Of a DNA stretch of 64,000 nt, positions 5,221 through 64,000 are shown piece by piece. The notes under the pieces are model-generated. The model made no database searches, was not told the origin of the DNA, and was given only the letters and a program-made list of their open reading frames with translations. The DNA lies in assembly GCA_948567375.1 (NCBI GenBank), contig OX419761.1, forward strand, positions 28,806,243 to 28,870,242, read 5' to 3'. Within the stretch, counting starts at the first letter, position 1. The number at the start of each line of letters is the position of its first letter. The position numbers and the translations under genes are program-made. The DNA is from Lunularia cruciata (Eukaryota; Streptophyta; Marchantiopsida; Lunulariales; Lunulariaceae).

Positions 5221-5235
5221 TCAACTTGTCCAGAG

Positions 5236-12032: not shown

Positions 12033-12056
12033 CTTAAACACAACATTTTATTTAAG

Positions 12057-15019: not shown

Positions 15020-15190
15020 TGACTGCAGCGAAGAAGGCAAGTATTGGAAGAAGAAGAGGTAAAGAAGAAGGTCACTCCGCAGGTTGAAGTAGTTGCCAGT
15101 GATGGAGTGGAGAACCTACGAGAAGTGGTGTGCCCCTTGTTAGTAAAGCTAGAGTACAAAAAGAAGGAGATGTAGTCAACTTGTCCAAAG

Positions 15191-18098: not shown

Positions 18099-18103
18099 CT
18101 TCC
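18099..18103. repeat. Target-site duplication of element B (right copy)
   Basis: CTTCC, the partner of 3,293-3,297. Confidence 0.85.
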
Positions 18104-36634: not shown

Positions 36635-37063
36635 CTAAAACAACTCGGTAAAACCACTCAAAGGATCATCTGCCTAGAAGCAATCTCTAAGGTGCTCATA
36701 AACCATCCTTGACAAGTCTCCTATAAACCATCCTTGACAAGTCTCCTGAGGAAAGACGAGCAGCAGTGCACAATGCTTGTGCAAATAGCGACCTATCAAG
36801 ACATAAAGGCTGCTCAGGCTGATAATCTAAGACCTCTAGTGGTAGTCCCTCTACTGCTATAGGATACAATGAGCGTAGGGAAGAGATGGTCTCATCAATA
36901 GGACTCGTTATAGACAAAGGGTGTAGCGCTCTGCTGCTCTACTAAACTCTCCCGCCTGACCCAATGTCCTACATTGTCGTAATCGAGTGGAATTTGTGGT
37001 ATCATGTAGCAATGCCTATCTCCTAAATCGTGTAGCCCTAACAAACTCCTCTTGAAGGGCTGC

Positions 37064-37594
37064 TCAATCCCCCGCTCGGAATGGACAAAATCTAGCTGCC
37101 ACCTCTCTATGCCCCGCACATCCCCCTCTAGCATAACGAAGACACCATTGAAGGAGTAGGAGGAATAGGAACCATGCTAACTCATCCAAGGGATCACGTG
37201 CCAAACGATCCAATGGTAGGCGAAAAGCTTGTCTAGCCTCATCATGGAGTGTGCGGGGTAGCCTCTGGAATAGACGTGGACATGGAAAACTAGTCTCAAA
37301 GAACCCCAAAATGCAACCCGCTTGAGAAGCTAACCACTCCCACGACTCGATCAATATCCCTGGAACGATCAACGAAGGTATAGAAGAAGCGTGTATAATC
37401 CCGAGTGTCACTGCTGTCGATGTGATCGCTCGTCTTACGTGAACGTCCCAAGTGGTCCAATCATAGTCTTTGTGCATCATTCTCACATGGGTCTTTATCT
37501 CTTGCAAGATAAAGCGTCGGTGACACACCGGGCATGGTGTATCCCGACCTGCTCTAGGCGACCCCATCTGGGAAAGTGTAACCATGGCTAGCAC
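37064..37594 (-). pseudogene. LINE copy 2 N-terminal region with C2H2 zinc finger
   Basis: 176-codon frame. CPVCHRRFILQEIKTHVRMMH at residues 21-41 is C-x2-C-x11-H-x4-H (37,534-37,472). The rest is helical, hydrophobic sequence (LAWFLFLLLLQWCL). An N-terminal zinc finger upstream of RT is typical of R2/NeSL-like, target-selective LINEs and not of plant L1 or RTE elements, which start with an AP endonuclease. No endonuclease block was seen here. The finger probably contacts DNA at the target. Confidence 0.6.
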
Positions 37595-38052
37595 AAGAAT
37601 AGTGATAGTAACACATGCTGCTCCTCTCCATATCTACAAAATCATAACTCATCACATCCTAATTCACATAAGAAAATAATATCTCCAAACCCTAAAATCT
37701 ATAAACTCTTATAATTTTTAATTTCTATCTCCAAAATTTTCAAACTTAATTCCTATGGGATTTAATCATGAAGACAAAGAAATTGAAAATGAAAATTCCA
37801 AACCCATGACTCTCAATGTATAATGATCATTCAAAGTAAAAAGCAAAAAAATTTAATAATTTTCTACCCCATTCTCCATAGTCTTCAATCTAGGTGCCCA
37901 TAGAACCAAAATTAAAAAACAAAAAAAATTGACTTTTCACTCGATAGCTACATGATAGAGAACATTCAAAAATTATAAAAATTATCTCACGTCTCTCTCT
38001 CCTCTCCTCTCCTCCCCCGTCTCCACACTCTCCCGCAACTCTCCCCGCAGCA

Positions 38053-41437: not shown

Positions 41438-42017
41438 AATAATAATCTAAACACGCACATCCAAGACCCGTCGATAGTCCAAATTCGCAGTTATGGAAAC
41501 AAACTTCGATTAAACAATTCAATGTATGAAAATTACAAAGCACCTACTCCAAAAAATTCGTCTCCGCCACTGTCGCGACTGGAATCCCATGTAACCTGGC
41601 GACCACGAAAAGTATCTTCACAGCTAAAATTCATACAGGTACCAATATGAACGATCCAATGCACATCTGTTAACAACGTACGCCGACGAAACTACGAAGT
41701 TTCTTCTGCTGGAAATTCGAGACAGCGAGAGAAATGTCCGTGACAAGAACGGATCTCGATTTCTGCAGAGCGTAGCCAAAACTTACGGTAAACGTTCCAC
41801 TCTCCTTTCTCTCCATCCCCAACCACTCTAATGTGGAACGGATGAAGCTGGTCTCAATCCAGTAGCAGAGCAACAGTTGCCTTCAATCCACACCATGCTA
41901 GCTTCTTGCATCTTGTCTTGCCCGACGAGGGGGTGAGGTTTACAAGCAGCCTCAGAGTGTTGCTATCTTCCCACTGGTGCTTTACGCGTGGTAGTACATC
42001 CGTAGTCGCGTGCAACG
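41438..42017. other. DUS upstream region
   Basis: Likely 5' UTR and promoter of the minus-strand DUS gene. No other feature recognised. Confidence 0.5.
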
Positions 42018-44179: not shown

Positions 44180-45652
44180 CTACACGTTGGTAACTCTCTT
44201 GTTCTTCTGCGAGATTTTGTACCATTCTGTGTGGAATGCTCCCTCCTTATCGGTACGTTCATAAGTGTGTGCACCAAAATAATCTCTCTGGGCTTGCAAG
44301 AGATTGGCGGGCAGGCGCTCTCTCCGGTAAGAATCAAAGTAAGCAAGACTTGCACTCATACCTGGGGTACTGATTCCAACACCAATGGCTAAACTCACCA
44401 CACGCCTCCAGGCGCTTTGGCGCTCAACCATCTCCTTCGCAAACTCAGGATCTATGAGCAAACTTGCAATGTTCGACTCCCGGTCATAGGCTGCCTTAAT
44501 TCGACCTAAGAATTTCGCACGGATAATACAACCTCCCTTCCAGATCCTGGAGATTTCACCGAGATTTAAGTTCCAGTTCTTTTCCATACCCTTGGCACGG
44601 ATAAGATTCATTCCTTGAGCATAACTGCAGATCTTGGATGCGTAAAGAGCCTTACGCACGTCATCTACGAGCTGCTTCTTGTCTACATCCTTCTGAGCCA
44701 AAATGTCTCCCACACCCTGTTCCCTGAAAGCCTTAGCGGCTAGTACACGTTCCTCCTTCAGTCCACTCAGAAAGCGGGAATCCAAAGAGGCAGCGATGGT
44801 GGGAATGGCTATCGAGAGCTCTGCCGCTTGTTGGACAGTCCACTTCCCGGTTCCCTTCATACCAGTTTTGTCAAGAATTTTATCCACCAACTCCCCTTGC
44901 GCTTCCTCATCTTTGACTCCAAAGATGTCAGCAGTGATCTCGATTAAAAAGCTCTCTAACTCTCCACGGTTCCACTCACTAAACGCCTCATGAAGCTCTG
45001 CATTGGACAATCCTCCAACAGATTTTAACACATCATACGCTTCTGAAATGAGCTGCATGTCTCCATACTCAATTCCATTATGCACCATCTTGACAAAGTT
45101 TCCAGCTCCACCAGGCCCGATGTACGTCACGCAGGGACCATCATCAACCTGCGCCGCCACCTTTTGAACAATATCCTCAATATACTTGTAAGCATCTAGC
45201 GTGCCTCCGGGCATCATCGAAGGTCCTCTGCGAGCCCCTTCCTCTCCACCAGACACTCCCATACCGAGGTAGTGAAGTCCTTTCTCCTTCACGAGAGCAG
45301 CGCGCTTCTCTGTGTTCTCGTACCACTCGTTGCCTCCATCGATTATGCAATCTCCAGGCTCCAAAAACGCAGAAAGAGTTGCAATCGTCTGATCTACAGG
45401 GGCTCCGGCTTTCACAAGGATGATGATGGCCCGGGGCTTCGCAATTGACATCACAAATTCCTTCGGGTCATAGAACCCTTTCAAAGGTAGATCGCCTTCT
45501 ATCTTCGCCCGTTCGACCGCTTCATCAACCTTGCTGTTGGTCCTATTGTAAACAGAAATGGGAAATCCCTTCTCAGCAATATTGAGCGCCAGATTCTGGC
45601 CCATCACGGCCAATCCCGCCAACCCGATCCTCGACAACCCTTGATCCGCCAT
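44180..45652 (-). CDS. 6PGD: 6-phosphogluconate dehydrogenase, decarboxylating (cytosolic type)
   Basis: 490 residues, uninterrupted, the usual length. N-terminal Rossmann motif GLAGLAVMGQNLALNI (10-25) and NRT at 36-38 for NADP+; IIDGGNEWYENT (103-114); GMGVSGGEEGARRGPSMMPG (130-149) binding the phosphate; FVKMVHNGIEYGDMQ (187-201) with catalytic Lys188 and Glu195; all-helical C-terminal domain with FDSYRRERLPANLLQAQRD and FGAHTYERTDKEG. It oxidises 6-phosphogluconate to ribulose 5-phosphate, CO2 and NADPH in the pentose phosphate pathway, as a homodimer. There is no transit peptide and the C-terminus (RVTNV) is not a PTS1, so cytosolic. An intronless coding region is common for plant 6PGDH genes. 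Confidence 0.97.
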   Translation of the reverse strand: MADQGLSRIGLAGLAVMGQNLALNIAEKGFPISVYNRTNSKVDEAVERAKIEGDLPLKGFYDPKEFVMSIAKPRAIIILVKAGAPVDQTIATLSAFLEPGDCIIDGGNEWYENTEKRAALVKEKGLHYLGMGVSGGEEGARRGPSMMPGGTLDAYKYIEDIVQKVAAQVDDGPCVTYIGPGGAGNFVKMVHNGIEYGDMQLISEAYDVLKSVGGLSNAELHEAFSEWNRGELESFLIEITADIFGVKDEEAQGELVDKILDKTGMKGTGKWTVQQAAELSIAIPTIAASLDSRFLSGLKEERVLAAKAFREQGVGDILAQKDVDKKQLVDDVRKALYASKICSYAQGMNLIRAKGMEKNWNLNLGEISRIWKGGCIIRAKFLGRIKAAYDRESNIASLLIDPEFAKEMVERQSAWRRVVSLAIGVGISTPGMSASLAYFDSYRRERLPANLLQAQRDYFGAHTYERTDKEGAFHTEWYKISQKNKRVTNV

Positions 45653-46260
45653 GGTTACTCTGCGCGAATCTCCTGGCCCCTCCCCACTTCTGCTTCTCTA
45701 GGCGCACAATGAAGAGAACAATGTCTCTCGTCTTTGCCCTCTCAATTGCTCCCTCTCGCAGACTGCGAATCCTCAGTTTCCTCGTCCCTTTGAACAACCA
45801 ATGATGCAGCGCCACACGAGGACGCCCCAGATCAGGCCAATCAATGGTGCGGACAACCAAAGACCAATTGGATGTTTCTCCAACAGCGAAATCAGTTTGT
45901 GTCACAAATTGCTTTGAATAATAGCATTACATGTACAGGGATTAGTGAACAGGAGTTTCACGATTTGACCTGAACCCCCTGTTGGAAGGAGAAAAGTCCC
46001 GCAGTCTAACGTAGTGGTTTGGCACATTGGAGTCTGAAGGGCTGGTCGAGATGCTTTTTCGCATGAGTGTGCGAAGTTTCTCATTAGGCAACAGAGTCGC
46101 CGCAGACAAGCTTAACAAACGGTCACGTGTCCGCCACGTGTCATCATGAAAGATACTAATGCTCAGCTCGCAACGTCTCAGGGTTAGCAATGTCAGCATC
46201 GCCCGGAACTCATGAATGGCACGCGTTGCCCTTATGGTTTAAATGTCAGCTTCTCCAGGA
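45653..46260. other. 6PGDH 5' leader and upstream region
   Basis: Likely 5' UTR and promoter on the minus strand. Contains an out-of-frame upstream ATG frame (45,905-45,573) overlapping the 6PGDH start, which could be a uORF if transcribed. Nothing else recognised. Confidence 0.45.
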
Positions 46261-47951: not shown

Positions 47952-49626
47952 AATAGTAACATCATAGGGAAAAGTGAATCAATCTTGAGGTCGGTATCAC
48001 CTTTGCTAGCCAATTGCATGACCACTGCTATCTATTAAGAGTTCAAAGAAGGGTGAGGAGAAATGTTCACCATTAAGAAATTTGAGAGGAAAAGAGAAGG
48101 GATCTTGTGAAATATGCACATTTATCGCTATGCCATTATTAAGTACACACAAATTATTGCAAATAGAAATAAAGAAGTCCATATCTCCATGTCTAAAAAT
48201 CCAACTTTCACATGTGGAAACAAGTTACAATGATGAGTGGAGAGACTACAAAGAGTCTTGAGGTTTAGAGGAATGGAGTGAGGAGGAGAACAATGATATA
48301 CACATTTTTGCAATGTGGTGGGAATTTATCCATGGGTAGAGATCTTGTCATGCCATTTGTAGTGTCGAATCTAGATTGCTCGGACATTGGAGTACTAGTA
48401 TTAGTAGTTAGAGGTATTTTGGCGGTTACTCATAGACTACTTTCTGATGGTCAGATTTTGTGTTTAGGGTACTACCTTCATGGTGGTGCCCATTGTCATT
48501 TGCACTGTCCGTGCCGTCAATAGGACCATTGGGATGGTCTTGATACTCCTGATGGTCTTGAAATCAAGAGTATACCTTGGAAGTGCAACTCTAGAGAGCT
48601 CACTTCTCTGATGTTGAGCCTTCAAGTTCTTGGCTAGAGTGGACAAAAAGCCGGTGAGTGTCACCTGGAGTCTCTTAGCTAGAGTGGGTGTGGCTTGACT
48701 GTAATCAATGTCCAATTGTTGGCAAGTTGTTGAGGATCAGATCAAGTATTGATCTGAGTTCAATTGATTCAATTGTAAACAATTTGATTACATTAGAGAA
48801 GTGAGTAAGGGAGAAATTGGGTGCAAGAACAACAAGTGTTGGTGGTATCTCTAAGCTCGGTGGATTGTGGTGTCTCGATTGAGTAGTTCAGATTTCCCTA
48901 AGAGAGTGTGTGTGCGGAAGCGCTGGCAAAATTTGAAGCCAAGGAAGAAGTAATTTTCAAGTGGTAGCTGTGATTTTGAGCTTAAGACCAATTTGTTATG
49001 AGTTGAGTTCAGAAATTGAAATTGAAGGTGGCGTTGAGAGAAGATCCTTGCAAATTGAAGATTGGACAAAACTCATCTTTCCAATTTGGCTCGAGTGAAG
49101 AGTTAGCTGAGGATTTAGTGGTCAGCCATTTTTAGGGATTTATGTCAGATTTTATGTCAGATTTACATAAAATTTTACATAAAATTTTATGAAAGAGTTA
49201 CGTCAAATTATGGCGAGAAGAACTTGAATTTGATCCTTGGTGATCCTTGTAGCTCAAGAAATAGATAGTTACTCCAATTATGTCAAATGCCAAATGGTTG
49301 TAGAGTCAATCTTGTGTTGATTTATGAGATGGAGGGTTGTTGTTTAGCATTCTTGTGATTGGACCCCCTCCATTCTCTGCTTCTTGTTTGTGCACTGTGT
49401 TTGTGTGAGGTGCCCTAAAATTTGAGCCTTGGTGCTCTAGTGTGCTCTTGATATTGAGGCTGGAGTAATCACCAGTCATACTATCTTTGTTTCTCTCTGG
49501 TGAGGCAAGAAGTGATGACCTGTAGATCGTGAAAATGCATGTTGTGATGGTAGATTACAGGTCGCCCTTGCCTCTAATGTAGTTGTCTCAATTACAATTA
49601 CATTAGTGAATAGTGTTCCGTTAGTT
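47952..49626. other. Unassigned; possible 5' LTR/leader of element C
   Basis: No gene supported. It precedes gag of element C directly and so may hold its 5' LTR, but no second LTR copy is in the window (the 3' end of C lies beyond the insertion of E), so this cannot be shown. 49,140-49,190 contains short repeats of TTTATGTCAGA and ACATAAAATTTT. Confidence 0.4.
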
Positions 49627-49720
49627 TTGGCACTTTGTGGTGCTTGATTGGTATTGGCACTTGGTGGTGCTTGGTTGGTGTTTGCACTTGGAGGTGTTGG
49701 CACTTGGTGGGGTACTTGCT
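49627..49720. repeat. Degenerate short tandem repeat
   Basis: About four imperfect units of the type TTGGCACTTGGTGGTGCTTGG, 16-27 bp each, just upstream of gag of element C. Confidence 0.7.
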
Positions 49721-49749
49721 ATCGCACATTTGTGGTTGCGGTTACTTTG

Positions 49750-51003
49750 TCATGACAGAGTTCTTTGGGGATTCCAGAGGAGATAGCCTTGCAGTACGCA
49801 ATGGATTTACTCAGAGTGGCGCTCAATATCAGCCCGTATCTTAGGTCCCAATGAGGAAGGAGATTGACTTTGAGTTGGAGTTTGACACAAGAGTTGATCT
49901 AGTTGAAAGTGCACTTGTCATGTCTACACCATTGTTGTAGGACATGGACAAGATTTATGGGGCCTCCAAAGGCCCTAGGCGTTACTCTGGTATAGTGGGT
50001 ACAATTGAGTTGGATAACTTCATCTAGGAGCTTGATAGTTGGGTGATCTATAGCAGATGCGGAACCCAACTTTGTTCATACCTTTCATGGCATGGAAGGG
50101 GTTGTTTCAGCATTAAGAGGGTCCATCGATGGATGACTGCCATGAGTTCAAGAGAGCTCATTTAGAAGAGATTGAGTTATGGAGACAATATTGGTCTCCG
50201 AATTATATCTCTATCACTTCAGACTTGGTTGCCAAGAGTAGATCGGCTGTACCTACGAGTTCTAGCTCAAGTAGTGTTGGTGGAGCTAGTGGAGGTGCAC
50301 TAGTTGGAGATAATGTTACCATGAGTAGAGGTACCACTACAAGAGATGGTGTTGTATTGAGGTTTAACCCCATGATGGAGTTCTTCTAGTGTTTGAAGCA
50401 AAACTACCTGGGAGTGCAGACTGACAAGCTGAGAAGCTTGCAGGAGTTCCAACAAAAGGTTGGAGAGAGCTTACGCAAGGCATACACTTACATGAGGCGG
50501 CTGATCAGTTTCACTCAAGGAGTTATTGAGGCCCAGGCAGTCCAGTTTTGGTATGGGATATTGGACAAGGAGTTGCGACGTAGAGTTCGTGATGCTATGT
50601 TGTTACGGGGCTACTTTGCCTACTTTGGCAGTGGTCTTTGGTTTGGCTGAGCGTATTGAGCTCAACATGGTGGAAAAGAGAGTGGTGACATCTGGATTTG
50701 GTAGGGAGACCTCATCCACAATTGTTATTTCTTCTAGAGTGCAATAGAGTGCACCACGCCTAGTTGGTTTTTGAGGACAAGGTGGACAACCCAGATCCTA
50801 TGGAGCGGGTGGAGGGCCTAGTGGAGTTAGACCCTTACCTTCATTTTTGGGTCAGCAGCCAGCCAATTTGTTGGACTTGTGGTGGACCTCACCATCGGAG
50901 AGAGTGTACTTAGGGTAGTGGACTTGATACCTCTAGTGCATCACAACCAGCACAAAGGCAGTGTGAGCATTGCCACAGATTTGGTCACACTAGTGACCGG
51001 TGC
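49750..51003 (+). pseudogene. Element C gag
   Basis: Frames 50,129-50,389 and 50,393-50,650 hold the capsid (DDCHEFKRAHLEE region, then GVQTDKLRSLQEFQQ, YTYMRRLISFTQG, EAQAVQFWYGILDKELRRR). Two nucleocapsid knuckles follow in other frames: CWTCGGPHHRREC at 50,869-50,907 and CEHCHRFGHTSDRC at 50,962-51,003. After these comes a Gly/Arg-rich stretch. Several frameshifts and stops. Confidence 0.8.
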
Positions 51004-51561
51004 TTTGACCTACACCCAAAGTTATGGAGTGGTAGGGCTGCTATGATAGGTAGTAGAGGAGCTCCAGTTCATGGAGGACAAGGTGGTAGAGGTGGTAGTA
51101 GAGGATCTACACCTAGTAGAGGTGCAATATCTACCCTTACTTTGGATTGAGCAATTGGAGCAAAGATTGCATAGTATGGCTATTGCTCTGAGGAGATCAG
51201 ATTCAGGTGCTGAGGCTTCCACCTCATGTACTTGTGATAGAGATGCTTTGGACTGCATGTGCGGAGCAACATAGGTGGATGCATCTACAACAGTGACTAG
51301 GACTGCAGTACGTGCTCTAGAGCCTAGAGGAGCATCAATGGAGTTGGACACATAGAGAGGAGAGGTTGGGAGACAGGTCAAACTCCCCTAATCTTTCACA
51401 ATATCTGAGGCATTGCAGATGACATCCATGGTTCCTAGACATCCTAGTGCAGGTGTGGTAGGCGGTGCTGGAATACATGATAGACTACTTGCTAGTCAAC
51501 CACCTGCTATTACATAGACTAAGTCTAGCACAATGTTGGGGGCGGCTCAGCTGATTATGCG

Positions 51562-51889
51562 GTGCCCTTTGTTTTCACCAATGACATGTTTACATTGGGA
51601 GTTGACCGAGCTCCAGTGTTCAAGTTGGCTGCCATACTTTGTGAGAGTAGAGATGATGTGGTTCCTACTGCTAGAGCAAAGATGGTTGATAGTGGAGCTG
51701 ACTTGGTTGAGGAGCATGGGATCCGTTCAGCGACCAATGGCTTATGGCAGGCAACAATGGCTAGATTGGAGGAGTTGCCAACTAGACCGGCCTTTGAGAG
51801 AGTGCGGTTCACACTTGGTGTTGTCCTATTGGATAACCAAAGGGGGATTTTCAGTTTGGTGGGACCTTCAGGGAAGGTCTATACATCAC
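51562..51889 (+). pseudogene. Element C gag-protease linker, cut by solo LTR
   Basis: The open frame reads DMFTLGVDRAPVFKLAAILC through ERVRFTLGVVLLDNQ and is interrupted at 51,889 by the solo LTR; the protease resumes at about 53,803. The sequence itself has no catalytic motif. Confidence 0.65.
51885..51889. repeat. Solo-LTR target duplication (left)
   Basis: ATCAC, compare ACCAC at 53,798-53,802 (four of five match). Confidence 0.6.
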
Positions 51890-53797
51890 TGTGACAACCC
51901 GGCAAATATCACTTTTGCGGTAATTGGGTAAGTAAAGTTTGTTCTTGCAAAGATATGATTCAGAATTGGTCAAATGCATAGTCAAACAGTAACATGTAGT
52001 TCTTCTTGGGTTCCTCTTTAATCTCGTAGGTAGAAACTACACCTAAAAGAGAGTAACAAGCTCACAATCTTGACAACTTGTCACAAATACACACAATAAC
52101 AAATTTTGTCACAACAAATCTTGATTGTGATGATTCAGATTCTCTCAAAGACGGCACTTCATTGCAAAAATGACTTTGCCTCAGAATTGTGTTCCACCCC
52201 TCCACTAAAGGCACAACTTCCTTGATCAAAATTGCTTCACATCAACTTTGTGTTGCACTCACAAATGCAGAATACTACTAACACTACAATTCCTCTCAGA
52301 TCTATCAAGGCATTGCTCCGATTGCACTTCACTCAAGATCAAACACACAGAATGAAGATCAAGGCTATAGAATCCAACATCCAACAAACACACTGACTTG
52401 CACTTCAAAATTCTCCTCACACTCACAAACACACACACAAAGTTGACACTCAGAATTAAGCTCAAGCAACGAGCATTGAAATCAACACTTTGCTTTATCT
52501 ATCTTCAGAAATATGAATATTGATTAGCATATTATTGCACATGCTACTCTTAAATAGTGAAGCAATTGACAGTTACTAAAAACTATACCATTCTACAACA
52601 ACTCTTCCTACTTGTAGATCCAAAATGACAAACCACCTCTTCATATCGGCCTCTTCTTATCTCCAAACTATTACTACTCCAATCCGATGTCTACCTCATC
52701 ATCGGCTTTCAAACCTGATGATCTTCCTATTGCTTCTCCTTCTCTGGGTATATCTACCACTACCAAGTCCTTCACTATTTCTACTACTTCTTCACTAGGA
52801 ACTAAATCAAGGTCATGGGTAATCCATCTACTTATTTATCTCCCGACCCACTCTTCTCTAAAGTGTCAAATAACAAATCCAAAGACATCTGAATTCCTAC
52901 TTCTGCAACATCGTGTCGAACTACTATCAATTCCTTTGCTAATTCTACTATATCCTCATCAAGAATTGTAATTGAAAGCATAGGTACACTATCTGTGCCT
53001 TCAATTTGTAACCCACTTTCCCATAATCTCTCATGTAACTGACCCAAAGACACACTTACTATCTGATCCTGCACTTCGGTTTTATTCAATGCTACTATTT
53101 CTCTTCTAGTTCTATCTTATCTTCAATCAAAACTGAAATTGAAGTCATGGGTATCCTAAATATCTTATTTCCTTATCCTAACTATTTTAGATGCTTCAAA
53201 TATCTAACCCGAATACTCCTACATCCGATGTATGACTACCTCGGGTTGAATCATATTTGTCTTGAGGTAAAGTCTTCAAACCCAAAGTCTTGTAAACCCA
53301 AAGTCCAAAGTCTGAAGTCTGAGGTCGTATAGACCCGAAGACATCAACCCGAAGACACTAACTTACTATGTACATCTACTCCCAAAACTTCAAATGCTTG
53401 TAACTTCTTCTATAGACCTTCAAACTCTGTGATTTTGGTGGGTGTGGAAAGTAATGAACGACACACTTCCAACGAGATATAACATGCTTGATTTGGACAT
53501 GTCATTATTGAGATACAACCCCCGCAAGAATCCTAACATGTAACCTCTATTCCGATGCAAAGTACCCTCTTCCGGCGTCTGACCTCCTTCTTCTTCTTCT
53601 TTCTCCTTTGATACGAAGTAAGCTTCTTTGGGTCTGATCCAATCCACGCCCTTCTTCCTCTAACACAAAGCTGACTTCCTTGGGCTTGATCAAAACACAG
53701 GGTTTCTCCTCGTTTCTTCTCCAGTTGGTTTCAATTTGGTTTCAGGAAGGCACTTCTTCTTCTAAACTTGTACAAAATGAAAAATGTGTGTACCACA
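51890..53797 (-). mobile_element. Element D: solo LTR of the B family
   Basis: Starts TGTGACAACCCGGCAAATAT and ends AAAAATGTGTGTACCACA, the reverse complements of the B LTR ends. About 1.9 kb, half the B LTR, so it carries internal deletions. The minus frame 53,089-52,832 (GIQMSLDLLFDTLEKSGSGD) is a diverged part of LTR ORF 2. No internal domain remains, so it arose by LTR-LTR recombination. Confidence 0.85.
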
Positions 53798-54470
53798 ACC
53801 ACAAAGAGTCTTGTTAGACTTTGGTGCGCAACCTCTTATGTTGGGAAGGCTGTAGTAATCGGTTTGGAGTTACGGAAGACCAATGTGGAGAGCTGTCCAT
53901 TTCAGATCCAAACATCTCTAAGTGGTGGTTTGACACAATACATCACACATGGGGAGCTTGTTGTCCAGGTTTAGCCTGATCATCCAACTGATAGCTTGGT
54001 AGTGAGAGCTCATGCTATTGTGACAATAGCTAAGTTATATGATGTGCTAGTTGGGAGGAGTAGTGTTATACTCCATGGGTTTCAATATTGACTATTGGGA
54101 GGAGACAACCTCCCATGGACTAGGTTGGCAGTCTAATGAGAGACGGGTATGTCGCCTATTGATACACTTCAGTAGTGGCAGTCTTGGCTCACTACAGTCT
54201 AGGACCATGGTAGCATCAGTTTTAGCTTTCAGTGGTGCAATTACTTGGCATGGTGACTTGTTGGAGGGGAACACCCTTATAGAGGACACTCCAACACCAG
54301 AGGAGATCACTTGGATTTGGAGTACGAGTGGGATTGTTCCATCCACCTTGGATGTTCCATTGTGCAATTCAGAGGAGGCATTGCAACAACATGCAGATCA
54401 ATTGGAGCAACAAGCTTGGAGTGGAGCCTTTGTACCATTGGCAAATGAGTGTGATGATAAGCCTCCATAG
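53798..54470 (+). pseudogene. Element C aspartic protease
   Basis: After the solo LTR, the frame reads VLLDFGAQPLMLG, where retropepsins have LLDSGAxxxxM; Ser is replaced by Phe as read. It continues RPNHPTDS-like sequence, then DVLVG and, from 54,051, YSMGFNIDYWEETTSHGLGW and an acidic C-terminus to 54,470. The frame runs on into the methyltransferase, broken only by TAG at 54,468 and 54,513. Confidence 0.75.
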
Positions 54471-54518
54471 TCTATTACTTTGACACCTCTAGATACCACA
54501 CTCATTGCTTGGTAGTAT

Positions 54519-55469
54519 CCAATAGAGGAGATATGTCTATTGGAGTTGTTTGGTGGGATTAGCACCGAACTAGTTGTGGTATTACAAGCGGGTATACGAG
54601 TACAAAGGTACTTGTATGTAGAGAAAGATGAGACTACTAGGTGAGTCTCTCTACATCATGTGGCACACTTGGCCTATTGGTATCTAGAGTTATTACCGAT
54701 GTTAGTTGTCAAAGGTTACCAGAAGGCCCTACCAACAGACATTTCTTTAATAGGAGTGCATGATCTAGAGAGACATGAGCATGTTTACTTGGTGATTTCT
54801 GGATGGCCATGTTAGGGACATACACGTGCGGGCCAAGGTTTGGTCTCCAGGATCCTTGTTCTGGTGTGTTTTGGGAGATGTTTCAGATACTCTAACATCT
54901 CCAAGTTCATCAGTCCATTTTTCCAACTTACCTTTTGGGGAATGTTCCTTTGATGGAAGATTCTTGTACTAGAGTGGTGGCAAGTACACATCAGGTCCAT
55001 TCTTGGATGGGACCTGCTGTATTGTTAGATGCAGCCAGAGTGGGATCACAAGCTCATCGTCTTTATCTTTGGTGGACGAACCTCTTACCCAGAGAGGTTT
55101 TACAACGTGCTTGTGATGGGACTCAACAACTTGACCACATCCTTGTTGATAATATCTTGGATGTTGGGCGTTAGTATCAGACAGTGGTAGTGGCTGATAG
55201 GTCACCTATGGCAGTGTGGTGAACCTAGTTGGACAGCCTAGAGCTGCATTTCCTACACTTATGAGTTTCCCAAGCTCTCATGCTTTTTGAGAGGGAGGAC
55301 CTAGACTTGTTTGGGACTCACAATTATACCTATTGGTGGAGCCCAATGCTGATGAGAGAGAGAGTGGGTGATGGGTTTTTGCAGTGGTATTACTGCTATT
55401 CTAGTAGTGTCAAAAGCATCTAGGCGTCAGGTGTTAGGTCAGGCTATGGACCTAAACTATTTGACCTAG
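54519..55469 (+). pseudogene. C5-cytosine DNA methyltransferase domain of element C
   Basis: Motif I LELFGGI at 54,540-54,560 (SAM binding), then RVQRYLYVEKDE (motif II/III, acidic residue after the second strand). Motif IV GWPC at 54,801-54,812, with TAG in place of the Gln of PCQ, followed by GHTRAG. After a frameshift near 54,830-54,845 come the motif VI remnant LLGNVPLMEDS at 54,935 (family ENV), then VLLDAARVGSQAHRLYLWWT (motif VIII-like basic segment). After another shift come PRLVWDSQLY and VEPNADERE near 55,340, and finally RRQVLGQAMDLN to 55,457 (motif IX/X region). All parts are in the order of DNA cytosine methyltransferases of the Dnmt/M.HhaI fold. Three frames and several stops make it inactive here. 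It sits between protease and RT. Target specificity cannot be told. Confidence 0.85.
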
Positions 55470-56920
55470 ATTATGAGCCTTGGCTTGGCAAAGCAACGTA
55501 GGATGCGCTTGATAGGCATCACCACTTGGACACTTGGAGCCATGTGCCTATCAATAAGATTTATGCACATGCTAGGGGTGATGGACCGAGTGGACATGGT
55601 ATTCTTGGGACACAACAAGTAGCTGCTAAGGGAGAGTGGTCTACTTGGAGTCCATCTAGGTGAGCATGGGCTACTTGGATTACACCCTTGGTCCACTTGG
55701 GTTGCAACTAGAGGACATGTGGAGCTTGTAGCCAAAGTGGAGGGATTTTTCCATACAGAAGTTGGGACCTCTAGTGGTCGGAGGCATGATACTATTGCTC
55801 CGAAGGGCCCAGTGTAGCAGCCAATCAGTATGTCTTCCACTCCTACTATAGTTATAGAGGATACTTGGGAGCCAGATCTTGGGCCCATGCTTATTGTAGA
55901 GGAAAGACAGAGGGTTTGGAGGTTCTTGAGGGGCCACACAAGTTGTTTTGTCTTCAATATGAAGGCAACATGGTATACAGATTGAGCTGACTAGTGATAC
56001 ACCAATTTTCTGACGTCCTTATCAATATATTGATATGGAGAGTACATTAGTTCAAAGCTGGAGTAGTGACCTTTTTGAGGCTGGTTTGGTAGAGATTTCA
56101 CATGGAGAGTATGTATCAGCGACAATGATGCCAACCAAGAAGTATATGCATGGCAATTACATAGATAGGCGGATATGTAGATATTACCGTCCTACCAACC
56201 AACAAACCATGGCTGATTGGTATGCCATGCCTACACCGGAGGAGATTTTTGATGCAATTGGGCATGCAAAGGTCTTCAATACTTTGGATCTTTGAGTGGG
56301 ATATCATCAGTTGTCAATCAAGGAGGAGGATAAGTCCAAGAAAACATTTTGGGCTATTGATCATCACGGCAAGGATGTGTTATATCAGTGGAGGTTCTTA
56401 CCATTTGGGTTAAAGAACACTCTTGCTAAGTTCTAGAGGGTCATGGATAGGATCCTAGTTGGATTGGATTTTGCTCAATGCTATATTGACGACATTTTGG
56501 TCTATAGCACTATTGTGGAGGAGCATGAGAGACAATTGTTGGAGGTGTTTGAGAGGTTGAGATCTCATAGTCTCAAATTACATCCTGGGAAGTGTAGGTT
56601 CTTCCACAAGCAAGTTGAGTATCTGGGTCAAACTATCTACCTTGAAGGACTTGGTGTTTAGTAGACCAAGGTGGAGGCTATTGCACGTATTCCTTGGCCT
56701 ATGGATGTGAGCAGAGTGCAAGCATTTCTTGGGTTGGCAAAATTCTATTACCGCTATGTTAGAGGATTTAGTGCCATTGCCAAGGCCTTGACAAAGTTGA
56801 CCAAGCTTACACAAGAGTGGTGTTGGGGAGATGAGCATGAGAGAGCATTTGTAGAGCTCAAGGACATCTGCTCCTATTTTGAGGAGACCGATGAAAGGAT
56901 GACCATTTTAGGTTCATATT
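55470..56920 (+). pseudogene. Element C reverse transcriptase with lead-in
   Basis: 55,470-56,030 is a poorly conserved linker ending in RQRVWRFLRGHTSCFVFNM. The RT frame 56,035-56,295 reads GLVEISHGEYVSATMMPTKK, RRICRYYRPTNQQT and FDAIGHAKVFNTLDL. It continues with WRFLPFGLKNT, then YIDDILVYS at about 56,482 (catalytic YIDD intact), HPGKCRFFHKQVEYLG and RVQAFLGLAKFYYRYV. Interrupted by a few stops only, so the best preserved domain of C. Confidence 0.88.
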
Positions 56921-56929
56921 GATTGGAGT

Positions 56930-57279
56930 ATGTTGGAGTTTGGAGCGGTGCTCACCCAACATGATGATGAGAGGAAGGAGTTTGTGGTGGCCCATGCTAG
57001 TCGCTCCAATAATTCAGTGGAGGCAAAGTATAGTTCATATGAGAGAGAGTGCTTGGTAGTAGCTTGGGTAGTAGCACATTTCCAATGTTACCTATTTGGT
57101 AACCCCTTCATTCTCATCATTGATAATCAGCCATTGAAGTGGTTGATGGAGTCCGACAAGCTTTCAAGGAAGCTTGCACGATGGGCTCTGATTTTACAAG
57201 AGTATGATTTCATGGTTGTTCACAGACCTGGAGTGGTGAATCTTGATGCAGATGGATTGAGTAGAAACCCATGTCGTAG
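56930..57279 (+). pseudogene. Element C RNase H, truncated by element E
   Basis: Open frame with LEFGAVLTQHDDERKEFVVA, RSNNSVEAKYSSYERECLVV, IIDNQPLKWLMESD and VVNLDADGLSRNP, covering the RNase H core. The open frame continues to 57,313, but from 57,280 it reads into the LTR of E. Confidence 0.88.
57275..57279. repeat. Expected target duplication of element E (left)
   Basis: CGTAG abuts the LTR of E; the partner lies outside the window, so unverified. Confidence 0.3.
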
Positions 57280-57975
57280 TGTGGTAACTCGGAAAATATC
57301 ACTTTTTGGGTAATCAAGTAAGTAAATTTTGTTCCCCCAAAGATACGATTTGGAATTCATCAAATACACAATCAAATAGTAACGTGTGGTTCTTCTTGGG
57401 TTCTTTAATCTCTCAAGTAGAAACTACACCCAGAAGAGAGTAACAAGCTCAGAATCTTGACAACTTGTCACAAATACACATACCCACAATCACAACATAA
57501 CAAATTCTGTCAAAACAAATCTTGATTGTGATAATTCAGATTCTCTCAAGGACGGCACTTCACTGCAAAAACGACTTTGCCTCAGAATTGTGTTCCACCC
57601 CTCCACTGAAGGCACAACTTCCTTGATCAAAATGGCTTCACATCAACTCTATGATGCACTCACACATGCAGAATACTACCAACACTACAATTCCTCTCAG
57701 ATTTGTCAAGGCATTGCTATAATTGCACTTCACTCAGAATCAAACACATAGAATGAAGATCAAGGCTGCGGAATTCAACTTGCACTTCAAATTTCTCCAC
57801 ACACTCACAAACACAAACAAAAAGTTGATACTCAGAATTAAGCTCAAGCGATGAGCATTGAAATCAACACTTTGCTTTATCTATCTTTAGAAATATGAAT
57901 ATTGAACAACATTTTATTGCAAATGCCTCCTTTAAATAGTAGAGCAATCAACAATTGCCAACAACTAACCCGTAA
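57280..57975 (-). repeat. Element E 3' LTR fragment
   Basis: Starts TGTGGTAACTCGG and matches the terminal part of the B LTR (reverse complement of about 6,340-7,072). It breaks off abruptly after AACAACTAACC where integrase sequence begins. Confidence 0.85.
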
Positions 57976-57987
57976 CAGTAAATGATG

Positions 57988-58384
57988 TTTCAAAAGAAAA
58001 ATTCTACAACTGCTTCCGCATCATCTCTTTGTGTTGCCTTTGCTTCTACCATCTTGGTAGCATAATCATTGCATACCAAGATGTACCTCTTCCTCGTGAC
58101 TCTAGTCATTGGTTGAATTGGACCCACAAAATCAATACCTCATTTCTCAAATGGAGCCAATGGCAAAATCGGTTTCAAAGGCCATTGGGAAGTCGCCGTT
58201 GGTTTTTCTATTCTTTGACATGAATCACAACTTTGAATATGGACGTAAGTATCTTTATACATTGTAGGCCACCAATACCCTACTGAAAGAATTTTCTTCA
58301 TAGTAGTCTTCAAGGCATAGTGTCCTCCCGATGCTTTAGAGTGTAAGCATTCAATGACTCCTTTGACTTCATATGCCTCCAAAC
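57988..58384 (-). pseudogene. Element E integrase, N-terminal part
   Basis: The frame 58,382-58,140 has the HHCC domain (LHSKASGGHYALKTT; HIQSCDSC). Core sequence with the first two acidic blocks (DFVGPIQ; CNDYATKMVEA) follows to the deletion junction. The third acidic residue and the C-terminal domain are lost. Confidence 0.82.
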
Positions 58385-58388
58385 ATCT

Positions 58389-58973
58389 TCAAAGTACTTC
58401 ATCTTTGCCCGTCTTGAACAAATTGTTGTGTTTTAATTGGTACGGTCCCATCTTCCTAAGGAAGACTGCTCTCTGCTCCAGGTCCAACCCCTCAGGACAA
58501 TAACAAGTATGCAGATAATGATATTTGGCCACATACATTGTACTTTGAACAACCATCAGATGATATAGCTCTTCATCAAGAAAGCGATCATCGACTTCCA
58601 AGTCTTGGTCTTGAGTTTCTAACCTAGAGAAGAAGTCTGCATTCAAATGCAAAGCTCCCTTCCTTACTTGTATAGTGTATGTGAATTTTTTTAACAACAA
58701 GAACCATCTTGCAATTTGCCCGGACAAATCTGACTTCTTGACCAAATGTTGTAGTGCGTAATGGTCAACATAGAAGACAAACTCATATCCCAACAGGTAG
58801 TGGTAAAATTTCTTGCAAGCATACACCATTCCAAGTGCTTTTCTTTCAATTGTCGAATAGTTCTTTTTTGAGACTGATAGTTGTTGGCTGGCATAATAAA
58901 CCGGATAGTCCTTCTTCTCGTCCTTCTGACTTAAGATGACTCCGATTGCCATGGATGAAGTGTCCATATACAC
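58389..58973 (-). pseudogene. Element E RNase H
   Basis: 194-codon open frame homologous to 11,424-12,032 of B: YMDTSSMAIGVILSQ, SVSKKNYSTIERKALGM, YVDHYALQHLV, KGALHLNADFFSRLE. Confidence 0.85.
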
Positions 58974-59066
58974 ATGAAAAAGGGCATCCTAATTTGGGGC
59001 CCTCATAACTAGTGCTTCAACTAGTTTCTTCTTCAATACTTGGAAAACATCTTCTTGTGCGGCTTC

Positions 59067-59846
59067 CTACAAGTAGTCTTTAGACTTCTTTAGCAGCTTT
59101 GTAAGGGGTGCAGGAAGCATCACATAGTTTGAAACAAAGCGTATGTAGTATCCAACATGTCTTAAGAAGGCTCTTAGCTCCCGAATGTTCTTTAGGGATT
59201 CCAAAGCTGAGATTACTTTGACCTTCTCAACATTGACTTCAATACCTCGGCTTGACACCTAATGCCCCAGAAGAATTCCCTCCTTCATTGCAAAGAATCA
59301 TTTCTCTAGGTGTAATGACAAACCGGCAAAATGATACCTTTCAAAAGTTTGGCAAAGGTAATCTAAATGTAAATCTCTTTGCCCAAACACACAAAAATCA
59401 TCAATGAAGACTTCCACAAATTTGCATAGAAAATCCTTGAAGATTGCATTCATCATCCGTTGGAAAGTAGTGGGAGCATTACACAACCCAAAGGGCATTT
59501 GATTGTAAGCAAAAGTGCACTAATTGGTAGTGAATGTAGTTTTATCCTTGTCCTCTTCTTGGATGGATACTTGATTGTACCCTAAAAATCCATTGAGAAA
59601 ACTATAACAAGGATGACCAGCTACTTGGTCCAAAATTGTATTGGTAAAAGGCAAAGGATGATGATCCTTCCTCGTCACTACGTTCAACTTGCAAAAATCT
59701 TGGCAAACTTGAATCTTTCCAGTCTTCTTCTTTGGAATGATGACTATGGGGGAAACCCACTCACTGCTCAAGATAGGAAAGATTATTCCGGCCCCTGAGT
59801 ACTTATCAATTTTGTCTTTCACCAAGAGGGAGTACTTTGGGTTCAA
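59067..59846 (-). pseudogene. Element E reverse transcriptase
   Basis: 59,846-59,520 has GIIFPILSSEWVSPIVIIPK and VCQDFCKLNVVTRKDHHPLP. A TAG at 59,517 replaces the Trp of TNWGTF. 59,498-59,298 has MPFGLCNAPTTFQRMMNAIF and VFIDDFCVFG. 59,258-59,067 has the connection region. Two stops separate otherwise aligned blocks. Confidence 0.88.
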
Positions 59847-59849
59847 GCG

Positions 59850-60590
59850 GTATTGTCTTTGCCAAACTGGAACTACACCTTCAATAAGATCAATCCAATG
59901 TTCTCCAAATTCTCATGGAATACCCGGCATTTGATCAATAGACCAGGAAAATACATCCTAGAATTCTATAAACAGGGTAGTGTATCCTGCCAACTCCTCC
60001 AAAGTGACTGTCTTCAAAATCTTCAAGATTTTTCCTTCAATCAAGATAACATCTTGACAGTCATTGGGGTTGATGACTCCTTCCACATGGCTTACTTGGC
60101 TCAATCCGAGCCAAACTGCAGTTAGACCCCCTTCTTCCAAGTCATGTTCATACAAGGCAATGTCATATGGGTCTTTGTCTTTGATCTCTACCTTGTAGCA
60201 TTCCAAGTAATTGACTTGGACTTTGTCTTTAGAGTCTTTTGAAGACAAAGACGATGAATCTTTGGATTCATCGTTGTCTTCCAACAAAGTTGTTTCTCCA
60301 AGGTGAGGAACCTTTGTCCAACTCACGGTCACCAGCTTTTGATCTTTGGAAAAAATGTCCTTAAACCATAACTTTTGCTGGTGCCAATCCACAATAACCT
60401 AGGCACTGTACAGCCAAGGTCTTCCGATCAAGAGAGGAGAACCAGTTCTGGTTACTGGTCACAACACAATGTAATTTAACTTAAAGGGCACTCCTCCAAT
60501 GATTGTAGTGATGTTTGACAGCATGCCCAAAGGCCATCTCTTGGTTTGATCCACAAATTTAAAAATTTGGGGTGTTGGTTCAAACGTTGT
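59850..60590 (-). pseudogene. Element E protease-RT linker and protease C-terminus
   Basis: The frame 60,392-59,958 reads DWHQQKLWFKDIF then an acidic Ser-rich stretch and VSHVEGVINPNDCQDVILIE, homologous to 10,070-10,490 of B. Protease C-terminal sequence (LIGRPWL type) lies just upstream on the minus strand near 60,400-60,430. Confidence 0.75.
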
Positions 60591-60599
60591 ATACTCCAA

Positions 60600-60863
60600 T
60601 CAATGTGCAATGTCTTCTATCATGACATTCACACCCGACCCCAAATCAATGGGTATGGATGTGATCATGCAGCCTATGATCTTTGCATCCACTTTGGGAG
60701 ATCCCAAATCTTCTTGTTCAATATGATAAATTGTAGGCAAGTCTTTCTTGGTCATCGCCCTTACTTTCTTGAGGGTCAAACTCAGCTGTTTCTTGTACAG
60801 CTTGTTGTCCTCCCACAATTGCTTAAATGTGACATTAGCACTCATAGACACCAAATCAGCCAT
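60600..60863 (-). pseudogene. Element E protease active-site region
   Basis: The frame ends IPIDLGSGVNVMIEDIAH. The D-S/T-G triad is D-L-G here, whereas B has D-S-R; each copy is inactivated at a different residue. Confidence 0.75.
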
Positions 60864-60932
60864 AATATCGTACTACGGGACTCCTCCCAACTTCATCTTC
60901 TTCACCTTAGTCTTTGGATCCAAAGTCTATCC

Positions 60933-61571
60933 CTATTCAAATCGGACTTTGGGTTGCTTCAGGATGGTAATCGGAGTATGGATGGCCTTGATTTGATGTT
61001 CTTCGGGTTGACAAACTTTATCTTGGATCAAGTCCTTTACTTTGGACCGGATATCTGCCAGAAAAACTGGAGGCTTCGTCTTTGTGTTCTCCTCCAAACT
61101 CATCTTCCGCATTCTAAGTACTACTTCCTTGATTTCTTTCTGCAAGGCTTTTGCTTTAGCTTTTGCTAGAATCTTTTCCTCCTTCGCAAAAAGGATAGCT
61201 TTTGGGCATAACCTCTTTGCCTTTTGTGAAGATGAAGAAGTAGTACTCACTTCTTTGGGATCGTGCTTCTTCTTACCCGCACGTGTCTCAACCTTCAAAA
61301 TTTTGAGGTCTGGCCATTCTCCTTTTGAAGCGAGACTCCCTTCTTGAGGCCTCTCCTCCTCAAGTGGTATAAAATTTACATTTGTATCCCCTTTTGCTTG
61401 GAGCGCAACATGCTCAGTGGGGGTCTGTACATATTTGACAAGCGGCTTTGGGTTTGGTGGTTGTGGGGATTGGTTTCTTGTATGCCCCAATCCCTTACAT
61501 TTTCCACAAAGTGGAACGTACCCAATTTGCTGTCTTGGCTCCAGACAATTTAGAGACCAATGTTCCATCAA
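60933..61571 (-). pseudogene. Element E nucleocapsid-to-protease region
   Basis: The 212-codon frame starts with the third zinc knuckle (LCGKCKGLGHTRNQ; Cys/His pattern partly lost) and continues with the lysine/alanine-rich coiled segment (AKAKALQKEIKEVVLRMRKM) as in B at 9,163 onward. Confidence 0.7.
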
Positions 61572-62372
61572 GCCACAATTATAGCAAGCACCCGATGCAA
61601 CATTTTGAGGCCTATTTTTTGGCCGCCCATCGGTGGTGTTTGTGGGGGAGCATTATTGTTATACTCCCTTGGTCCATACCTCAGACCTTGATACAATGTG
61701 CTCGCCTGAGGCTGCACCCCTTGGGTCTGGTACACAGCCGCATCTTCCTCACTTTGGTCCCAACCGAGAACCCAATCAATTTGTTGCATTGGAAATGCAT
61801 TTGCATGTCAAACACTCTGTATTAGCATGGCTGGATTTACCACACATTGTGCACCATACATTTGGTCGGCCAAATTATGGAGGCTTTCTTTGGTCCTTAG
61901 CCCCAATCATCTGGATTTTGAAATCCACAAACTCTTTAATAGGAGTCTCTAGCTTCTGATCCGCCTTAGGTACATTCTTTGTTGGCGGTGTTACTGGTTT
62001 CTTTCCTCCGTGTCTTTGTATTCTTCTTGGCTTTGATTCTTCTTTGGATTCCAAAGAAGAACTCAAAGATGTAGAGGATTCCTCCAAAGAAAGGGATGTG
62101 CTACAAGAAGCTCTCCTTCTCGGCTTCTTGCCTTTCTTCTCCCAATTTCTTTAGTTGCTGGACGAGTGAGAGTGAGCCGCCTCATATAGGGCAACATGTT
62201 TGAGGACTTTGTCCAAGGAAGTTACATTCCTCTCCTTGGCAAAGATACAAATCTCTAGTGAAAGTCCGCCAAGGAACCAGGTAATGGCTTGGGCATCGGA
62301 GTAACCCACCACACCGGATTGTTTTAGAACTCTGTTTAATAGGGCCATGAACCGCTTGAAGTAATCTCTCAA
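61568..62372 (-). pseudogene. Element E gag, C-terminal capsid and knuckles
   Basis: 62,372-62,151 has YFKRFMALLNRVLKQSGVVG and ITWFLGGLSLEI; 62,087-61,875 the basic linker; the first knuckle and QQIDWVLGWDQ follow to 61,568. Homologous to 8,092-8,880 of B, in broken frames. Confidence 0.78.
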
Positions 62373-62392
62373 CTTTTCCTTCTTCTCTCAAT

Positions 62393-63256
62393 CTAAATCA
62401 TTGAGTGCCGCAAAGACACTCGTATCATAATCAACTTACCGGAATTGTTCCAGGAACCATTTTGCAAGTCTGCCCAATCAGTTGGTGTGAACACCTTTTG
62501 GGTTACATGGGTGTACCAACTCTGAGCTTTCTTTTGGAGTAGACTTGGGAAAATTTGCAAACAATCCATAGAGTCATGTTCCTTGTTGGCACAAGAGATG
62601 ACTTCAAATTCTTTGATAAATTCATCAGGATCTTTGTCTTGTTTTGTCCCTTTGTACTTTTGATAGGCGTGTTGGGTGACAAGTAATGAAGTCATCATTT
62701 GATTTGGCAGAATCAGCTGTGGTAAGTTTGAACTTGATGGGACCGAGGGGCTGGCTGGTATCAACGCCATGTTGTCAGCCCAAGGATTCCAATTATTCAA
62801 GTTCAAAGTTGGGTCTTCTTCAACAATATCTTCTTCTCTGTTTGTGTCGACTTCAACCCGAATAGAAGTAAGAGGTTCAACACCTTCCAAGTGTTCTTTG
62901 AGATTCCTTTGAGACAACCAAGGAATTATGCATAGAAGATGTTGACACTCTTCTTTCATAAGCATTTGTGTTGTCTTTTTGTGAACAAACTTCTTGATAA
63001 ATTTGACTTCCTTTACAGCTTTAGGGGAAGTTGGTGTATTGGGTTGTAATGAATATGTCTGCCCACTCAAGTCTTTCTTGTTCTTAGAAGAGGAGGATGA
63101 GAAGTAGCCTTCCCATCCGCCTTCACATTTCTTTTGTTTGAGTTCTTGCAAAGCTTCTTGAACTTCATGAAGAAGTTGGAAGTCCAACCTCTCCCATTCG
63201 GCTTTGTCAAAAGTGGATTGGATCTTCAAGCGTTCTTCTTCTTCATGATGCAACAT
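62393..63256 (-). CDS. Element E gag, N-terminal 287 residues
   Basis: Open for 287 codons. N-terminal helical region (WERLDFQLLHEVQEALQELK), Ser-rich linker, then the capsid core: HAYQKYKGTKQDKDPDEFI, KEHDSMDCLQIFP, KKAQSWYTHV. It is the most intact gag sequence in the window and serves as guide for the broken copy in B. Gag proteins form the virus-like particle in the cytoplasm. Confidence 0.8.
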   Translation of the reverse strand: MLHHEEEERLKIQSTFDKAEWERLDFQLLHEVQEALQELKQKKCEGGWEGYFSSSSSKNKKDLSGQTYSLQPNTPTSPKAVKEVKFIKKFVHKKTTQMLMKEECQHLLCIIPWLSQRNLKEHLEGVEPLTSIRVEVDTNREEDIVEEDPTLNLNNWNPWADNMALIPASPSVPSSSNLPQLILPNQMMTSLLVTQHAYQKYKGTKQDKDPDEFIKEFEVISCANKEHDSMDCLQIFPSLLQKKAQSWYTHVTQKVFTPTDWADLQNGSWNNSGKLIMIRVSLRHSMI

Positions 63257-63365
63257 TGGTCTTCAAACTCTCTCTTCCTATTGTTCTCTTGATGCAAACA
63301 TTCATATTGCTTTGACACCCAATTTTGAGATTGGCTTCATAATCTTCCACTTCCAAGATTTGTAT

Positions 63366-63382
63366 CCCCAGCAGCGGTGCCA
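63366..63382 (-). promoter_or_regulatory. Element E primer-binding site (tRNA-Asp type)
   Basis: Minus strand TGGCACCGCTGCTGGGG, 7 bases from the LTR end, 14 of 17 matches to the tRNA-Asp complement. Confidence 0.8.
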
Positions 63383-63389
63383 AAAGTCA

Positions 63390-64000
63390 TGTGATAACCT
63401 AGAAAATATCACTTTTGTAATTATCAGGTAAGTAAAGTTTGCTCCCATAGAGATACAATTCAAAATTGATCAAATACAAAGTCAGACAATAACATGTAGT
63501 TCTTCTTAGGTTCCTCTATAATCTCTCAGGTAGAAACTACACCTAGAAGAGAGTAACAAGCTCACAATCTTGACAACTTGTCACAAATACACACACCCAT
63601 AATCACAACATAATAAATACTGTCAAAAAAAATCTTGATTGTGATGATTCAAATTCTCCCAAAGACGGCACTTCATTGCAAAAACAACTTCACCTCAACA
63701 TTTTGTTCTACCCCTCCACTGAAGGCACAACTTCCTCAATCAAAATTGCTTCACATCAACTTTGTGCTGCACTCACAAATGCAGAATACTACCAACACTA
63801 CAATTCCTCTCAGATTTGTCAAGGCATTGCTCCGATTGCACTTCACTCAGGATCAAACACACAAATGAAGATCAAGGCTGTGGAATTCAACATCCAACAA
63901 GCACACTGACTTGCACTTCAAATTTCTCCATACACTCACAAACACAAACACAAAGTTGATACTTGATATTAAGCTCAAGCAACAAGCATTGAAATCAGCA
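63390..64000 (-). repeat. Element E 5' LTR (runs off window)
   Basis: Starts TGTGATAACCTAGAAAATAT and matches the terminal LTR part of B, D and the 57,280 copy. Confidence 0.9.

Follow-up and report, generated by a model that had tools for sequence, protein, structure and literature searches.

A stretch of 64,000 nucleotides from the liverwort Lunularia cruciata (C11:28806243-28870242 of the genome assembly; hereafter the window) almost certainly holds a decayed copy of a Ty3/gypsy retrotransposon that belongs to a family abundant in this plant. The first reading frame of the element encodes gag, protease and a C5-cytosine DNA methyltransferase of the DNMT3 type, and the second, beyond an in-frame UAG, encodes reverse transcriptase (RT), RNase H, integrase and a PHD finger. 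An earlier note, made from the letters of the window alone, had proposed a C5-cytosine methyltransferase in a Ty3/gypsy element at 54519..55469, and this proposal is confirmed by matches to Marchantia polyproteins and by scores above the PF00145 cut-off in related proteins and in one genomic copy, L010 (E 3.4e-7). The window copy itself is dead, and it is one of many.

The methyltransferase domain of the window copy spans 54516..55508 on the plus strand, in four frame pieces (54516-54839, 54842-55216, 55213-55362 and 55356-55508) with six stop codons. Every motif that had been claimed there was found in its place: ELFGGI, GWPC (a stop comes immediately after it, and then GHTRAG), GNV for ENV, GSQAHRLYLWWTN and LGQAMDLN, which we take to be motifs I, IV (GWPC/GHTRAG), VI, VIII and X, respectively. 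The start of the protease remnant does share its frame with the first half of the domain, as the note had it, but two frame changes lie between them. Pfam and NCBIfam scans of the window pieces gave no methylase match because this copy is too decayed, and homology is instead established through its relatives. Thus the PF00145 search that had been proposed as a check found nothing in the window pieces, but the profile scores above cut-off in the related proteins P0001 and P0002, in six of eight further relatives scanned and in L010; the two relatives below cut-off, Marchantia P0022 and Sphagnum P0025, are both without parts of the domain. When the first-half piece was compared with the PDB, all 27 matches at E<=10 were to DNMT3A, DNMT3B or DNMT3C (best E 0.047), and the second-half piece gave a single match, to Basigin (E 0.44), which we regard as accidental. 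When 5.8 billion proteins were searched with the first piece, 49 candidates came up, of which two had E<=10, and these two are Marchantia polyproteins. The best match was MARPO_0007s0008 of Marchantia polymorpha (E 2.7e-35, 65% identity), and Mp_2g26090, which has RT, RNase H and DNA_methylase domains, matched at E 4.9e-28 with 64% identity.

A profile search of the Lunularia assembly (565,766,749 bases in 74 contigs) placed PF00145 matches at at least 123 sites, mostly near profile positions 48-120 and a few of them in host genes. With a Calypogeia domain as query, 13,013 first-look candidates yielded at least 121 scored copies, each with 72-75% identity across 329-330 residues (E<=2.3e-159). 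Sixteen copies with long open frames (L009-L024) were fetched from the 123 PF00145 sites. The methyltransferase lies between protease and RT in all 16, as the note had claimed for the window, and since the copies were picked by their PF00145 match they give no measure of how often relatives lack the domain. Neither outcome that the note had listed as refuting its claim was observed. Open reading frame (ORF) 1, encoding gag, protease and DNMT3, has 1428 codons and is open in L009 and L010; ORF2, of 1037 codons, is uninterrupted in L013 and L014. Both ORFs share one frame and are separated by a single stop. Pfam matches in ORF2 of L014 follow the Ty3/gypsy order of RT, RNase H and DDE integrase (RVT_1 3.3e-31, RT_RNaseH 4.1e-35, H2C2 2.6e-18, rve 1.2e-12), with a PHD finger (2.2e-10) at residues 992-1036 and no chromodomain among them. 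The protease motif is DSGA in 14 of the 16 copies, DFGAQ in L010 and the window copy (53817-53831), and DSSAQ in L015. By eye, the 5′ flank of L013 (L032) reads like DNA coding for motif VIII, and L013 seems to have inserted in the methyltransferase region of another copy of the family.

The family starts with TGTCACG in a repeat of about 450 bp (A1), and its 3′ end consists of B1 (107 bp), two bases, A2 and B2 (107 bp), finishing in ACGACA. This A-coding-B-A-B order of split direct repeats, which is that of DIRS-type elements, is found in the window copy too. All of the 16 copies except L017, which is truncated, have B1-A2-B2, and 13 have A1. Across L009-L024, the ACGACA at the end of B1 and the TGTCACG at the start of A2 are parted by two bases, usually GC, an arrangement that resembles a circle junction of element ends. 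An exact 4-bp target duplication borders ten of the 13 copies for which both flanks are available. Tyrosine recombinase (Phage_integrase) was not among the Pfam matches of L014 ORF2 or L010 ORF1, and rve was present; despite the DIRS-like termini, the integrase is of the DDE type. The A repeats of 13 of the 16 copies have diverged little, with Kimura two-parameter (K2P) distances of 0.000-0.052 and a weighted mean of 0.017, from pairs that are often partial (101-449 positions).

Sequence search and comparison of the predicted fold (best 50 of 1000 chains) both indicate that the domain is DNMT3-type, with linear motif order and not the rearranged order of DRM. The C5-cytosine enzyme of the earlier note stands, with the correction that it belongs with DNMT3 rather than with CMT, MET1 or DRM. 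Of 2505 candidates from a search with a Marchantia protein, 30 had E<=10: 18 from Marchantia, one from Calypogeia fissa, two from Sphagnum and nine others, with none named as Klebsormidium nitens among them. Marchantia P0001, P0003 and P0004 have the order gag, zinc knuckles, protease and DNMT3. Five metagenomic proteins (P0024, P0027, P0028, P0029 and P0030) instead carry DNMT3 after RT and RNase H, followed by the integrase zinc domain and integrase where the sequence reaches them; the order in P0029 comes from sequence matches and not from a domain scan, and P0024 starts in RNase H. A PHD finger also lies behind the integrase region in P0024 and Marchantia P0022. No relative was confirmed in viral and bacterial collections with P0017 as query, or in the viral collection with P0030.

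In a 21-row DNMT3 tree, a branch with 100/99 support separates 17 element DNMT3s from a host DNMT3, two host DRM-like genes and human DNMT3A, with bryophyte-type elements grouped at 73/88 and metagenomic elements at 99/99; an RT tree groups the bryophyte proteins at 89/98 and the metagenomic ones at 100/100. The elements in the DNMT3 tree are bryophyte and metagenomic only, without K. nitens. A single DNMT3 capture is favored by this tree, and two captures would also fit, as the branches are long and the tree is unrooted. The host DNMT3 gene in Lunularia (L038) has at least two exons, with GGFPC at motif IV and ENV in the next exon, and the host DRM-like genes (L002 and L041) show the rearranged motif order; all stand apart from the elements. 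The nested elements visible in the window, taken alone, could suggest that retrotransposons have interrupted a host DNMT3 gene or become fused with it. However, at least 121 dispersed domain copies, the regular termini and the position of the host genes outside the element group in the tree leave this explanation a negligible chance, and it was rejected on copy structure.

The junction between DNMT3 and RT is marked by UAG followed by CAG in 15 of the 16 copies, with CCA (13 copies), CTA (one) or TCA (one) as the next codon; L024, in which an earlier UAG is present, is not among the 15 junctions read. In the window the junction reads UAG CAG CCA at 55815..55823 on the plus strand, a stop in the CAR-YYA context described elsewhere, as far as the available part of that report goes (PMC2194720). 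Among 11 relatives compared, six end 70-92 residues past the last DNMT3 motif and one ends 28 residues past it.

Pooled over the 16 copies, the ratio of nonsynonymous to synonymous polymorphism (pN/pS) is 0.39 for gag, 0.48 for protease plus linker, 0.35 for DNMT3, 0.54 for the tail, 0.26 for RT, 0.23 for RNase H, 0.52 for integrase and 0.25 for the PHD finger, and DNMT3 gives 0.29 in 20 further copies; all 36 copies retain both PC and ENV. These ratios and motif counts are biased towards intact copies, because the copies were selected either by their long open frames or by their rank in a scored list. The DNMT3 domain is 74% identical to those of Marchantia P0004, Calypogeia P0011 and P0012, with a range of 66-74% when P0017 is included and 50% for the gapped Sphagnum P0025. 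Identity to Marchantia is 69-78% for RT, 80% for RNase H and 77% for the PHD finger, and 56% and 57% for gag and protease. Many copies are young, as the A1/A2 distances show, and the constraint may thus partly be shared descent, as would be expected if the domain were a neutral passenger captured once and carried along. Against such a passenger, which we consider highly improbable, pN/pS in DNMT3 is near that of RT, and the 66-74% identity to the Marchantia, Calypogeia, P0012 and P0017 domains is above that of gag and protease.

The same data bear on whether the domain might be an RNA methyltransferase or a non-catalytic, nucleic-acid-binding part of Gag. Its location in the Gag ORF would suit the latter, and in yeast no DNA methylation was seen with the KnitGypsy-Dnmt3 element of K. 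nitens, a result that its authors call inconclusive in the part of the paper available (PMC5890265). However, the retention of PC and ENV would be unneeded for a purely structural role, and the match to DNMT3 is far above that to DNMT2 (E 2.2e-10 versus 0.037), and we hold this explanation to be improbable.

The pattern of decay shows that the element copies have been subject to CG and CHG methylation over a long period. Singleton changes number 705, among them 499 that are C>T or G>A, and the per-base rate of these changes is 0.0187 at CG, 0.0175 at CHG and 0.0036 at CHH, with 0.0010 for A>G/T>C. Stops across the 16 copies, the junction UAG excluded, comprise 40 TAG, 27 TGA and one TAA. For the window copy the observed/expected CpG ratio is 0.22-0.27, compared with 0.46-0.47 for three copies and 0.60 for the window at 20-50 kb. 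This decay marks the element as a target of methylation, not its enzyme as the writer.

The most likely function of the DNMT3 would be methylation of the element's own complementary DNA (cDNA), and we are inclined, without great assurance, towards the following mechanism. Ribosomes would mostly halt at the UAG, such that DNMT3 is made alongside Gag and in excess of RT and integrase. The enzyme would then be packaged in the particle and methylate the cDNA before or at integration, and the PHD finger behind the integrase might bind the histone H3 tail and direct insertion. Fresh copies would arrive pre-marked, and host maintenance enzymes would retain their CG and CHG methylation, leading to silencing and slow mutation. 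Alternatively, the methyltransferase could act on host targets or saturate host defence, either by methylating host genes or by blocking RNA-directed methylation. Encoded before the stop, DNMT3 may exceed pol and could act outside particles; however, the strong CG and CHG decay of the copies indicates that methylation of the element is not avoided, and no sequence feature was seen that points to host targeting, although no test for localisation signals was made. Action on the host is thus unlikely, if less so than the RNA or structural roles considered above.

Several observations, in addition to the selection of intact copies and the yeast result, weigh against cDNA self-methylation with UAG dosing and PHD-steered insertion. 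No copy among the 16 has both frames whole, and 12 of 36 copies have a stop inside the DNMT3 domain. The conservation of the UAG across 15 young copies is largely common descent, and four of the 11 relatives compared (P0007, P0009, P0019 and P0025) continue into RT or beyond; in some relatives the stop may be absent or may have been spliced round by annotation. Three of the 13 copies with both flanks (L013, L019 and L021) are without an exact target duplication. The CHG component of the decay could be the work of host CMT/MET1-type enzymes just as well as of a DNMT3.

The window copy is an old remnant of a family in which amplification later resumed. Its terminal repeat A1 (48346..48790, plus strand) starts with TGTCATG, is preceded by an ATCT target duplication and matches A1 and A2 of L011. 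It is followed by the leader and a broken gag region with a zinc-knuckle part (49233..51889, plus strand; 85% identical to L011), in which 49740-51882 matches Marchantia gag-protease-DNMT3 proteins in tblastn. The junction of gag and protease is split at 51890..53797 by a retrotransposon of another family, probably on the minus strand, with a long terminal repeat (LTR) at 51890-52589. Beyond this lie the protease remnant (RVLLDFGAQPLMLG; 53798..54085, plus strand) in a broken frame, the methyltransferase and UAG described above, a broken RT (55972..56862, plus strand; RVT_1 1.7e-13 for 56437-56661) and RNase H (56870..57275, plus strand; RT_RNaseH 2.6e-28), where the ORF at 56912-57313 continues into an inserted LTR. 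That second insertion occupies 57276..64000 on the minus strand, with LTRs at 57280-57970 and 63390-64098 around a minus-strand gag-pol, and extends to window-equivalent position 67105. The body thus consists of 49233-51889, 53798-57275 and window-equivalent 67106-69546, with the two foreign insertions between, and is 85-89% identical to L011. The B1-A2-B2 end lies beyond the window, with A2 at window-equivalent 68997-69440 (L050/L051), and ATCT borders the copy on both sides as a 4-bp target duplication. The K2P distance is 0.205 between A1 and A2 and 0.079 between the B repeats. Whether the LTRs at 51890 and 57280 are the element's own was considered, and the idea was rejected: gag precedes the first of them, and members of their family also occur at 6364-7072, 17394-18098, 57280-57970 and 63390-64098.

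Other parts of the window are also rich in mobile DNA. The second, larger retrotransposon family (57280-64000, 6364-18100 and L050/L051) has LTRs about 700 bp long, and its copies are roughly 80-90% identical to one another. Long ORFs beside the LTR at 5221-6279 and 15176-16234 (both plus strand) have a coiled-coil look by eye, and the blocks 3300-6504 and 13252-16459 are 93% identical. ORFs at 36026-37633 (minus strand) and 21176-21652 (plus strand) look, by eye, like an RT of the non-LTR type preceded by a zinc-finger motif (PCPVCHRRFILQEIKTHVRMMH). Among the retrotransposons are a single-ORF tRNA-dihydrouridine synthase (Dus) gene at 39719-41446 (minus strand) and a single ORF at 44180-45697 (minus strand), presumably 6-phosphogluconate dehydrogenase. 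The closest matches to Dus among the best 120 of 456 proteins come from Marchantia paleacea (60% over 98%), M. polymorpha (73% over 70%) and Riccia fluitans (72% over 66%), followed by further Marchantia and Calypogeia (54% over 78%), which bears out the guess that the DNA came from a land plant. The Lunularia assembly is described, in the part of the report available, as 580 Mb with Gypsy bursts (PMC9985172).

With these findings, the range of DNMT-carrying retrotransposons widens from one charophyte alga to include liverworts (with Marchantia and Calypogeia) and Sphagnum. Because plants silence retrotransposons by cytosine methylation, an abundant and recently active plant element with its own conserved DNMT3 is a testable paradox. 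The element also brings a PHD reader and, probably, a translational switch for enzyme dose, suggesting a genetic parasite that is both a writer and a reader of epigenetic marks. Its host appears to be near the model Marchantia, whose annotated proteins include relatives, and direct tests are therefore within reach. A wider and more speculative possibility is a 'writer plus reader' Gypsy lineage of plants and algae, in which one captured DNMT3 came to occupy two polyprotein positions (before RT in bryophytes, and between RNase H and integrase in the metagenomic group), with Gag-level dosing by a leaky UAG, cDNA self-methylation and a PHD finger that picks chromatin. If this is true, split repeats with a DDE integrase would represent a reverse-transcription route unlike that of LTR or DIRS elements.

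Chromoviruses are Ty3/gypsy elements with a chromodomain behind the integrase, and these chromodomains are thought to steer insertion. The Lunularia element likewise has a domain of chromatin-reader type at the integrase C-terminus, but this is a PHD finger, and the element also has DNMT3 and split repeats. PAT/Ngaro-type DIRS elements have A1-ORFs-B1-A2-B2 termini, as does the Lunularia element, which differs in having rve and target duplications and, in the two ORFs scanned, no tyrosine recombinase. The closest published case is KnitGypsy-Dnmt3 of K. nitens, and the link that the earlier note drew to de Mendoza et al. 2018 was right, as Gypsy-DNMT3 elements of this alga are described there (PMC5890265). 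According to the part of that paper available, both elements share Gypsy domains, a non-rearranged DNMT3 in the polyprotein, DIRS-like repeat order (given for K. nitens in a figure legend), purifying selection and an absence of introns, and the K. nitens copies are called few (PMC5890265). Compared by description and not by sequence, the Lunularia element differs in its land-plant host, the UAG between DNMT3 and RT and the 4-bp target duplication; it has a PHD finger after the integrase, and 'PHD' occurs nowhere in the main text of PMC5890265. SymbioDIRS-Dnmt3 of dinoflagellates, as described in the available text, is a similar DNMT-bearing retrotransposon whose repeats follow the A-coding-B-A-B order and whose pol ORF includes DNMT3, but it uses a tyrosine recombinase, and SymbioLINE-Dnmt is a LINE, whereas the Lunularia element has a DDE integrase and 4-bp target duplications (PMC5890265). 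DNMT3 in retrotransposons of streptophytes and dinoflagellates is also mentioned, citing de Mendoza et al., in the available part of PMC12344493. Among the openly licensed papers listed by the searches, judged mostly by titles and opening lines, there was no other on a DNMT-carrying retrotransposon of a land plant or on a PHD finger in one. As far as the literature was searched, the land-plant hosts, the PHD finger, the DNMT3 before a readthrough-type stop and the target duplications with split repeats are therefore new, and the element joins DIRS-like termini to a DDE integrase.
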